Part shown: piece after piece, positions 4,702-51,354 of the stretch | How positions within the stretch are numbered: the first letter of the stretch is position 1 | How the letters are laid out: the number at the start of each line of letters is the position of its first letter | Source of the DNA: Rubellicoccus peritrichatus | Lineage (GTDB): Bacteria; Verrucomicrobiota; Verrucomicrobiia; Opitutales; Cerasicoccaceae | Assembly (NCBI RefSeq): GCF_033100135.1 | Contig: NZ_CP136920.1 | Location: 3,343,001 to 3,407,000 of the forward strand | Reading direction: 5' to 3' | Length of the DNA stretch: 64,000 nt | The notes under the pieces: model-generated | Told to the model about the DNA's origin: nothing | Databases searched by the model: none | What the model saw: only the letters and a program-made list of their open reading frames with translations | Translations under genes and position numbers: made by a program

Positions 4702-5211
4702 CTAGTTCGTCTCAACGTCTTTGAAAAGAAAATTGAGACTGGCGATCATACAACTCGAATAGATGACCTTTCCGTGACCTAGTGGCTGCGCTTTTCGTTT
4801 TATGACATATATGCCTGAGAATTTATCTCTTATCATTTGGCGCTTTTCGTCGCTTGTAACCCAGATAATATCAATGATGAAAAAGAGCGAACCCAAAACG
4901 AAAAGAGAACTTCGAACGAGCATTGAATAAATAGATGGTCGTTTTCCTGATACATCGATCAGGCGTGTCCTTGTAACAATATTACCAATAGTTCCGTATC
5001 TCCTTTTCATTTCAATAAAGTATAAAAAGAGAAATACCACGATTATGGTATCGTACTGTCCAGAGGTGAGGCTTGCCGATTCCGCTACTGCATCAAGGGC
5101 AAAACCAAACCCAGCAGATAGTGCCAAGTCGATAATCAGTGTCGATAGGCGCAAGGCGAAATTAGCATAATCAGATTTCTGATAGTAAACACCTGACGCG
5201 TTGCTTTCCAT
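4702..5211 (-). CDS. RDD family membrane protein
   Basis: 169 residues. The N-terminal third holds an RDD-like signature (YANFALRLSTLIIDLALSAGFGF, with conserved Arg and Asp in the first membrane segment). A second hydrophobic segment lies near 50-65, followed by the basic GTIGNIVTRTRLIDVSGKRPS loop that matches the family's 'GKxxxGLRVVDxxG' region, and a third segment near 105-125. The role of RDD proteins is mostly unknown; some act as Na+/H+ antiporters. It lies between the thioredoxin gene and the iron transporter on the same strand, 62 bases after the former's stop codon and 62 before the fbpA ATG at 4639. Function is not inferable. Confidence 0.7.
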   Translation of the reverse strand: MESNASGVYYQKSDYANFALRLSTLIIDLALSAGFGFALDAVAESASLTSGQYDTIIVVFLFLYFIEMKRRYGTIGNIVTRTRLIDVSGKRPSIYSMLVRSSLFVLGSLFFIIDIIWVTSDEKRQMIRDKFSGIYVIKRKAQPLGHGKVIYSSCMIASLNFLFKDVETN

Positions 5212-47814: not shown

Positions 47815-48639
47815 TCATTGAGCTTGTCTTGAAATCTCTTTGTAATGCTCCGAAGGGGAAGCTCCCATTTGCTGGGTAAAGACTCGATGGAACTGCGCGT
47901 AGCTGCCGAAGCCAGCCTCCAATGCTGCTTCCAGCATGCTTTTGGTTTTTCCGAATTGGAACAGCTCAGTGAAGCGTTGGAGTCGCTGTTGATTACGGTA
48001 ATCGGTCAGGCTCATTCCAATCTGCGCATGAAACAACCGGCTGAGGTGAGACTCGCTTAAGCCAGCGTTCTTACTGATGGTTGAAATGTCTTCATCTCCT
48101 TCGCCTTCTTTTAAGAGCATCGCGGTGCGAAAGATGGCTGGATGCAGGGTTTCGTGCAAAGGCTGGTGCAATACTGACTGAAAGCTTTGCCAGGCTTTTA
48201 ATAGCAGGAAACGCAAACTCGCGTTGAATAAATCGATTTGGTCTTCCTGGCACAAGGTTTCTTCACAGAGTGTGTTCAGGGAAATACCATCAACCGGTTT
48301 TACCGTCCGGATTATTTCTTCGGGTGCGGATGAGTTGAGTAGGGGAAGATTACCAATTTCCTTACAGGCGGCTTGCAGCATGGACTGTTTGAAAACAACG
48401 ATCCACATATTGAAATCATCAGAAACGTCATAAAGTATATGCTCTTCGTCCGGGAACAACCATATTAATGAGAAAGGCTGAAGTCGGTATTTTCGACCAG
48501 AGACCAGGTAGTGCCCCTGTCCTTTGAGTGCCAGATTGAATTCCAATTCGTCATGGGTGTGGGGGAGGCCTGGCTTGAGGCCGGAGAAAGAAAACAACAT
48601 GCCATCTTTATCAACGCCTATGTCGAGATCGTGCTTCAT
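47815..48639 (-). CDS. AraC-family transcriptional regulator
   Basis: 274 residues. A cupin-like N-terminus (PHTHDELEFNLALKGQGHYLVSGRKYRL, ~25-60, with the His pair) senses a small molecule. The C-terminal HTH pair spans ~170-270 (ISTISKNAGLSESHLSRLFHAQIGMSLTDYRNQQRLQ and the second helix near LEAALEAGFGSYAQFHRVFTQQMGASPSEHY). It is divergent from the PhyH gene at 48741 (101 bases apart) and same-strand upstream of the sulfatase, so it may control either. Confidence 0.9.
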   Translation of the reverse strand: MKHDLDIGVDKDGMLFSFSGLKPGLPHTHDELEFNLALKGQGHYLVSGRKYRLQPFSLIWLFPDEEHILYDVSDDFNMWIVVFKQSMLQAACKEIGNLPLLNSSAPEEIIRTVKPVDGISLNTLCEETLCQEDQIDLFNASLRFLLLKAWQSFQSVLHQPLHETLHPAIFRTAMLLKEGEGDEDISTISKNAGLSESHLSRLFHAQIGMSLTDYRNQQRLQRFTELFQFGKTKSMLEAALEAGFGSYAQFHRVFTQQMGASPSEHYKEISRQAQ

Positions 48640-48740
48640 GCAGCATCAAATGATAACATAAGGATGTCATCTAAGAAGCTTTTTCTTCTTCGTTTTGATA
48701 TATTGATGCTCATTCAACGATTAACCCAAACACATTACTT

Positions 48741-49535
48741 ATGATTACAACCAACAATGCTATTGTTACCGATGACATGATCCGCCAATTCAAAGAAGAG
48801 GGTTATTTCATTATTGAGAAGGCACTCGCTGAAGAGCAAATCGAAGCCATGCGTGGAGAGTTAGGTGGTTTCATGGATGCCATCCATCAAAAAATGGATG
48901 AGGAGGGAACTGATTCGCTAGGCATCACGCATCGCAATAAGCGCTACTTCATTCCGCATACTTACAATCGCAGTCAGATCATGCATGACTTTATTTTTGG
49001 TCCGATCATGCAGGAGATCTGTCGTGCGACGCTGGGGGACAATGTGAATTTCTTTCTCGATCAATGGGTGGTCAAATCCGCAGAGAAGGGGATGAGCTTT
49101 TCATGGCATCAGGATTCTGGCTACATTGGTTTTGACCATAATCCATATTTGACCTGCTGGACTCCATTGGATGATGTAAATGAGGAAAACGGAACGGTCT
49201 ATCTCCTGCCTTACAGCCACATCGGTGTCAAAACACGTGTGACACACATCTGGGATGAAGTAACCAATGACATGATCGGCTACTTTGGTGATGATCCAGG
49301 CATTCCAGTTATTGTTCCTGCTGGCAGCATTGCCTGTTTTTCAAGCGTTTGCTTCCATCGCAGTGGCGTGAATACCAGCCCAAATATGCGCCGCGTCATG
49401 CTCACACAATATTCGGCCGATCGTATCATTGATCCTCTCACCAAGAAGCCTCAGATAAGTGCAATCCCCTTTATCAAGGACGGAGAAGTCATCAACGAGT
49501 GTTATCCGATCAAAGACCCTCACGATATTGGTTAA
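48741..49535 (+). CDS. Phytanoyl-CoA dioxygenase (PhyH) family protein 1
   Basis: 264 residues. Fe(II)/2-oxoglutarate oxygenase fold. The iron triad is His-x-Asp in SWHQDSGYIG and a distal His in SVCFHRSGVN; the following Arg (RRVML) would bind 2-oxoglutarate. Substrates of bacterial PhyH proteins vary (lipids, ectoine, aminophosphonates, sulfonated or methylated compounds) and cannot be chosen. Its 3' end overlaps the convergent second PhyH gene by 4 bases (TTAA). Confidence 0.88.
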   Translation: MITTNNAIVTDDMIRQFKEEGYFIIEKALAEEQIEAMRGELGGFMDAIHQKMDEEGTDSLGITHRNKRYFIPHTYNRSQIMHDFIFGPIMQEICRATLGDNVNFFLDQWVVKSAEKGMSFSWHQDSGYIGFDHNPYLTCWTPLDDVNEENGTVYLLPYSHIGVKTRVTHIWDEVTNDMIGYFGDDPGIPVIVPAGSIACFSSVCFHRSGVNTSPNMRRVMLTQYSADRIIDPLTKKPQISAIPFIKDGEVINECYPIKDPHDIG

Positions 49536-50359
49536 GCCTCTTCAGCATAGAGCACTGGGTTGAGCGGACTATCAACAACTTCACCAATCTTGACGCCTGG
49601 CATCCAGCCGTTCCAGTCATTTTTCTGATTCTGATTCTTGGGCTCAACCAGCTTGATGTCTTTGTCCATATAGATGATGGTCATGACTTCGCGGGCTTTG
49701 TCAGTTGTATTGGGACCTGCGCGATGGAAAGTGAATCCATAGTGAAAACTGACTTCTCCCAGGTCAAACGGGCCTCGATCAATTGGCAGATCGGTAAGCT
49801 TTAGATGCTTATCGATCTTTTCCTGGCTTTCGTCGCTGATCGCCAGGTCTCTTCCGAATTTAATATTCTGACTGCCAATAGAGAATTCAAGTGGTCCCAT
49901 TTCCAAAGGGAGTTCCAGCAGGGGAATCCAGGCAGTGACGGTGTTGTTATTGGATAGCGGCCAATAATACTGGTCAACATGCCATGGAGTGTAACCGCCG
50001 CCAGGCTCTTTATAAAGCGCCTGATCATGATACATCCTGACGCCGGTTGTGCCCATCAGTTCGGTTGCGATCCGAGCCAGTCGCTTGCTAAAGGCAAACT
50101 CCTTGGCTACTTCACTCTTTGGCCAGATATTGCTGACTTGGAGAAAGGCTTTACCATAGGTAGAGCGCTCTTCGAGCGGTTGGTCCTGCCAATTCAGTTC
50201 CTTGACCATACGGGTGATCTCTTTGCCGTAATAGGCAATGGTCTCAGCATTAAGAACATCCTTAAGCTTGATGTAGCCATCTTTGCGGAAACGGTCGATT
50301 TGTTCCTGCGTGAGAGGGTAGTGGGTGTCGAGATCGATAGTTGATGCTGTTGCTGTCAT
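49532..50359 (-). CDS. Phytanoyl-CoA dioxygenase (PhyH) family protein 2
   Basis: 275 residues. A paralogue of the PhyH gene it converges with. The iron motif is PWHVDQYYW, the distal His lies in FTFHRAGPN and the Arg in REVMTI. The N-terminus LTQEQIDRFRKDGYIKLKDVLN is the typical PhyH opening. It is divergent from the AraC gene at 50488 with 128 bases between starts. Confidence 0.88.
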   Translation of the reverse strand: MTATASTIDLDTHYPLTQEQIDRFRKDGYIKLKDVLNAETIAYYGKEITRMVKELNWQDQPLEERSTYGKAFLQVSNIWPKSEVAKEFAFSKRLARIATELMGTTGVRMYHDQALYKEPGGGYTPWHVDQYYWPLSNNNTVTAWIPLLELPLEMGPLEFSIGSQNIKFGRDLAISDESQEKIDKHLKLTDLPIDRGPFDLGEVSFHYGFTFHRAGPNTTDKAREVMTIIYMDKDIKLVEPKNQNQKNDWNGWMPGVKIGEVVDSPLNPVLYAEEA

Positions 50360-50487
50360 AATTGAGATAAGTCTCCCTCAAGTATAACAGGGAAGCTTAT
50401 TGGATTCATCAGCTATTCTTGCAAAAACTGATACTTTTTTAACCGATTGAGTTGCTTTAGGTCATATTTACAGGTTGGTTTCGTCTT

Positions 50488-51354
50488 ATTAAAGCGATAT
50501 TCGAGAGAATTGAACCCAGACCCGATGACTCGATTCATTGTCGGGAGAGTGTTGATACCTCGTTCAATCATCCCTTTCATTTTCATCCCGAGATTGAGAT
50601 CACGCATATCATGTCCAGCAATGGAATCAGGTTTGTGGGGGATCACATAGAGCCATTTTTTCCTGGCGATTTTGCAATTCTCGGGGGCAATCTTCCGCAT
50701 CTTTACATGAACAGCATGCCACCGGCTCCCAAATCTGATTGGGCGCAATCGAGGGTCATTCAGTTTCGGCGGGATTGCTTTGGCGAAGGTTTTTTTGATG
50801 TTCCTGAGATGAAGGATGTCGCACAGCTTTTCAGGCGTGCCGGGCGTGGTTTGAAATTTACAGGTGATAGTGCAGCAGCTGCGATTAAAGTGATGGAGCG
50901 CCTGTTTAAAACAAACAGGGCGTCACGTATTTCGTGCTTTATTGAGTTGTTGGAGTTGATGGCTGACGCACCGGATGTTGAATCTCTAGCGTCACCAAAC
51001 TATGCGCCATCGCTCAGTAGTTGGAATGGCGAACGACTTGATCAGGTATGCAATCTTGTTAGAGAACGCTTTGCCGAACCGCTCAGTCAGGCTGAGGTTG
51101 CCAAGGCGGTCAATATGAGCCCGCCGGCCTTTAGCCGCTATTTTGGCAAGCGAACAGGGCGGACTTTTGTCAGTTTCCTCAATGAAGTTCGCATTGGCCA
51201 TGCTTGTCGGCAACTTCAAGAATCGGACAAGACCATCCTTGAGATTTGTTACGAAAGTGGTTTTTCCAATCTCTCCAATTTTAATCGCCGTTTTCGGGAT
51301 ATTAGGTCAATGACCCCCTCCGAGTATCGAAAGTGTTTCGCTGAGTATTCGTGA
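50488..51354 (+). CDS. AraC-family transcriptional regulator starting at ATT
   Basis: 288 residues if translation begins at the ATT at 50488. The frame is open from a stop at 50458-50460, and the N-terminus IKAIFERIEPRPDDSIHC...FNHPFHFHPEIEITHI is a conserved AraC cupin with the H-x-H-P-E motif. The first ATG is at 50611, past most of this conserved region, so a shorter protein would lack it. There is no ATG, GTG or TTG before it. The HTH pair lies at the end (PLSQAEVAKAVNMSPPAFSRYFGKRTGRTF ... ICYESGFSNLSNFNRRFRDIRSMTPSEYRK). It is either a rare-start gene or a start-loss pseudogene. Confidence 0.8.
   Translation: MKAIFERIEPRPDDSIHCRESVDTSFNHPFHFHPEIEITHIMSSNGIRFVGDHIEPFFPGDFAILGGNLPHLYMNSMPPAPKSDWAQSRVIQFRRDCFGEGFFDVPEMKDVAQLFRRAGRGLKFTGDSAAAAIKVMERLFKTNRASRISCFIELLELMADAPDVESLASPNYAPSLSSWNGERLDQVCNLVRERFAEPLSQAEVAKAVNMSPPAFSRYFGKRTGRTFVSFLNEVRIGHACRQLQESDKTILEICYESGFSNLSNFNRRFRDIRSMTPSEYRKCFAEYS

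Follow-up and report, generated by a model that had tools for sequence, protein, structure and literature searches.

Where does translation of an AraC-type regulator gene begin when the codon at the position from which its family starts is ATT, and is that codon used at all? The question arises in a 64,000-nucleotide stretch of the Rubellicoccus peritrichatus genome, here called the window, where the following features make up the locus:

49532 to 50359, minus strand: divergent PhyH-family dioxygenase gene (PF05721, E 9e-25), the likely target of the regulator
50423 to 50443, plus strand: conserved motif AAAAACTGATACTTTTTTAAC in the araC-PhyH intergenic region, also present upstream of close homologues
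50461 to 50487, plus strand: short in-frame extension from TAG to ATT, which lacks a start codon and contains ATA 50464 (direct reading)
50488 to 51354, plus strand: gene for an AraC/XylS-type regulator, 288 codons from ATT 50488 (Pfam HTH, AlphaFold2, 67 homologous frames)
50488 to 50490, plus strand: ATT codon at the homologous start position (in 67 homologous frames the column holds ATG 34, GTG 9 and TTG 4 times)
50611 to 50613, plus strand: first canonical in-frame start, an ATG at residue 42 whose Met is unconserved (ORF scan and homologue alignment)

Direct reading bore out the first-pass annotation, which had the frame opening after the TAG at 50458-50460 with its first ATG at 50611; the frame stays open for 297 codons up to the TGA at 51352-51354, and an ORF scan found, as had also been claimed, no ATG, GTG or TTG between that TAG and 50611. 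ATT 50488-50490 opens the peptide IKAIFERIEP, and the segment FHFHPEIEITH likewise lies 5′ of ATG 50611. Two further near-cognate codons that the earlier annotation did not list, ATA 50464 and ATA 50497, occur in the same frame. The start-less stretch alone is unremarkable, since by our own estimate 50 codons without a start would arise by chance in about 9% of cases, if about 4.7% of codons are starts. What goes beyond chance, judging from the homologues, is that a family-conserved N-terminus lies 5′ of the first canonical start.

Homologues came from two sources, whole genomes within the organism's own family, order and class, and a general genome collection; 68 frames, the window's araC included, were aligned, so that 67 others could be counted. 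The first-pass annotation had placed ATT 50488 at the expected start position and had proposed to look for ATG at this codon in orthologues. The alignment agrees with it: 47 of the 67 frames have a start codon in that column (34 ATG, 9 GTG, 4 TTG), the sister gene L002 being among those with ATG. In 15 more frames a start codon lies at most 8 codons upstream of the column, while the remaining five consist of L089 and L009, which have longer N-termini, L041, which is frameshifted, and L081 and L082, whose mis-trimmed rows give no start information. Orthologues beginning at the counterpart of ATG 50611, which had been named as evidence against an ATT start, were looked for and none was found among the 67 frames; nor did any other of these homologues have ATT in the start column. 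The extension between TAG and ATT (50461 to 50487) lies outside the alignment with the homologues. The nearest relative, L002, is 48% identical, has ATG in the start column and has the same divergent PhyH neighbour; the window araC is its sister in the tree (support 100/90), with L071 on the next branch, and since both carry ATG, one base change from ATG is the simplest history. Other close relatives use TTG (L070, L072, L073) or GTG (L116, L117) at the same position.

The Niabella ginsengisoli homologue L041 was considered as a second start-less case and rejected, because its MKPELIV lies in another frame, which amounts to a frameshift. Its N-terminus, MKPELIVDAPILGQKK, is found in that different frame at 4950-5060, through either mutation or a sequencing error.

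A second line of evidence comes from the intergenic region. The motif at 50423-50443 also precedes other genes of this AraC clade, which are spread over a class of bacteria and 39-48% identical at the protein level. A matrix trained on 11 homologous sites gave a match (shuffled p <= 0.02) upstream of 38 out of 65 homologues, and 27 of these 38 were not among the training sites. When the PhyH-araC intergenic region of the window was compared with that of L002, the score was 39 against a maximum of 34 in 1000 shuffles. From the motif end it is 44 nt to ATT and 167 nt to ATG 50611; the distance to the start codon is 41-45 nt in L070, L072, L073, L116, L117 and L123, 36 nt in L002 and 33 nt in L071. 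Since this gap varies from 2 to 158 nt in remoter homologues, the spacing supports the start position but does not prove it. Taken together, the homologue start column and the motif spacing are two independent lines by which we judge that ATT stands at the true start position of araC, 50488. The motif itself is probably an operator or promoter element, and probably the operator of a local regulator. The whole genome of the organism holds a single match to the 19-base motif core within 2 mismatches, and a reversed-pattern control gave 4. In the literature searched, neither the motif nor its core TGATACTTT was found as an AraC-family operator, and scanning the intergenic region for promoters and repeats yielded no hit better than expected by chance.

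The frame read from ATT encodes an AraC/XylS-type regulator. Pfam matches to HTH_18 (PF12833, E 5.4e-24) and HTH_AraC (PF00165, E 4.6e-14), together with helices at 178-287 in an AlphaFold2 model (49-sequence alignment, mean pLDDT 93), give the C-terminal double helix-turn-helix of the AraC/XylS family. It follows an N-terminal domain that is beta-rich in the model (pLDDT mostly >90), conserves H31, H33, E35 and E37 and has no Pfam cupin match at 1e-3. There is neither frameshift nor internal stop in the 297 open codons, and 43 of the 45 positions conserved in at least 80% of sequences are kept. Identity to L002 is 0.55 in the N-terminal part versus 0.47 in the rest, and the terminal branch measures 0.62 for the window araC versus 0.83 for L002. 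By these measures the gene body is without decay, so that function, if lost, can have been lost only recently.

The dioxygenase gene is a conserved partner: at 7 homologous loci (L002, L071, L003, L004, L081, L006, L084) a PhyH gene 57-69% identical to this one stands divergent from araC. From this divergent arrangement PhyH is likely under the control of the AraC-type regulator, and the remark in the first-pass annotation that a lost start might leave the facing dioxygenase mis-regulated is reasonable, given that the partner is conserved. Next to this pair, at 47815-49535, lies another AraC gene that is likewise divergent from a PhyH gene of its own; the two divergent pairs thus stand in tandem, and their PhyH copies are only 23% identical.

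We put at roughly 0.5 the probability that the ancestral start codon became ATT, most simply from ATG, and that a full-length regulator is still made from AUU at a low level. Under this reading one base change at 50488 would have occurred in the organism's own lineage, translation would still begin at AUU with fMet at a much reduced rate, and little of the full-length AraC-type sensor/activator would be available for the divergent PhyH gene. It presupposes that the base, known from one assembly, is real. Changes of this kind are very rare, AUG having switched to AUU across close relatives in 1 of 61,358 ancestral AUG starts (PMC5622118); bias in annotation would tend to push this figure down.

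Reduced initiation from AUU may in fact be negligible, since the genome hardly uses Shine-Dalgarno sequences (median dG 0.2 over 114 genes, weaker than random) and the upstream context of ATT 50488 is poor, at the 8th percentile relative to ATG genes. A less likely competitor is a recent start-loss null allele: the base would be real but would yield no useful regulator, leaving this strain with a nascent pseudogene and an unregulated PhyH. No candidate codon has a good ribosome-binding context, and ATT was the weakest of three start codons tested in Listeria (PMC13068326). The coding-statistics score of the frame is also low (0.023 per codon, where frames of similar size have a median of 0.09), as is that of the second AraC in the window (0.046). 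Against it, the 288 codons contain no second lesion and the conserved residues are kept, which shows only that a null mutation here would have to be young. As to the wider region, positions 3093001-3493000 (L093-L112) show almost no Shine-Dalgarno signal, with leaders that are A-rich and G-poor.

An assembly or base-calling error, with ATG at 50488 in the real genome, is rather unlikely. It would fit the fact that a single base distinguishes ATT from the sister gene's ATG while the rest of the gene looks normal, and no second assembly of the species was found. But the genome is a single contig at 97.5% completeness, and long-read errors more commonly take other forms than a single G-to-T change away from any homopolymer. 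Control frames from the organism's own genome also count against it: in 400 kb around the window, comprising 291 non-overlapping frames, 20 others had their first start 25-54 codons in, and when these were scanned with Pfam, 0 of 20 had a domain beginning 5′ of the first start codon, with 6 of the 20 uninformative for want of any Pfam match. A coding-statistics survey of the 400 kb is invalid as a control, the araC frame itself falling below its threshold.

If the base is real and used, it is improbable, though conceivable, that AUU is a selected throttle which holds a local dioxygenase regulator very low, possibly under IF3 control. The setting for it would be a genome with hardly any Shine-Dalgarno use; some close relatives already have TTG or GTG at the same position.

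Translation from ATG 50611, the first canonical start in the frame, would give a truncated regulator of 247 residues, its HTH domain intact and its sensor domain damaged. We rejected it as very improbable, since no homologue begins there and conserved residues would go: its Met is unconserved, and such a start would remove strand 17-23, most of strand 36-43, and H31, H33, E35 and E37. Its upstream context is also poor (6th percentile), and the N-terminal 40 residues do not show relaxed constraint. Hardly credible, finally, is initiation at ATA 50464 or ATA 50497, or entry by frameshift from another frame, for although both ATA codons are present, ATA did better than ATT in Listeria (PMC13068326) and a TTG-started ORF (50447-50650) overlaps in another frame, both of them fall outside the start column of the homologues, and a programmed frameshift from that ORF was rejected because inspection by eye showed no slippery heptamer and because the scores of the other frames are far lower than that of araC.

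Low-level initiation at AUU, our preferred reading, has known counterparts. The gene pcnB starts with AUU and so shares this initiation codon with araC. Unlike infC and pcnB, araC encodes neither a translation factor nor a poly(A) polymerase, and its ATT stands in one gene copy of one genome. Escherichia coli infC, in the part of PMC5472188 that cites it, likewise has an AUU start and is subject to IF3 autoregulation; the infC frame of the present organism appears to open with ATG, which leaves its genome without another known AUU start. A further likeness is to the ATG-to-ATT and ATG-to-ATA mutants of Listeria monocytogenes rsbW (PMC13068326), where a regulatory gene also went from ATG to ATT with its body intact. 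There translation was measured as reduced: with ATT, fluorescence was undetectable and a weak protein was seen by Western blot, which means strongly lowered but not abolished. Those mutants arose in laboratory selection, in contrast to the present case, which we infer from one genome of another phylum and which concerns a DNA-binding regulator. The Streptomyces sigR gene, too, encodes a transcriptional regulator, whose level is kept low by a non-canonical start codon (PMC5472188). It differs in that its start codon is GTC and that IF3 was shown to repress it.

Rare AUU starts and ATG-to-ATT mutations are thus already known, and araC adds a case. Since gene callers normally take only ATG, GTG or TTG, they would probably choose ATG 50611 here, which would make the annotated gene 41 residues too short and lead to a misreading of its sensor domain. 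Should the ATT be real and in use, this would be a rare natural transcriptional regulator with an ATT start, and its setting would be a Shine-Dalgarno-poor genome, where the identity of the start codon should matter most.
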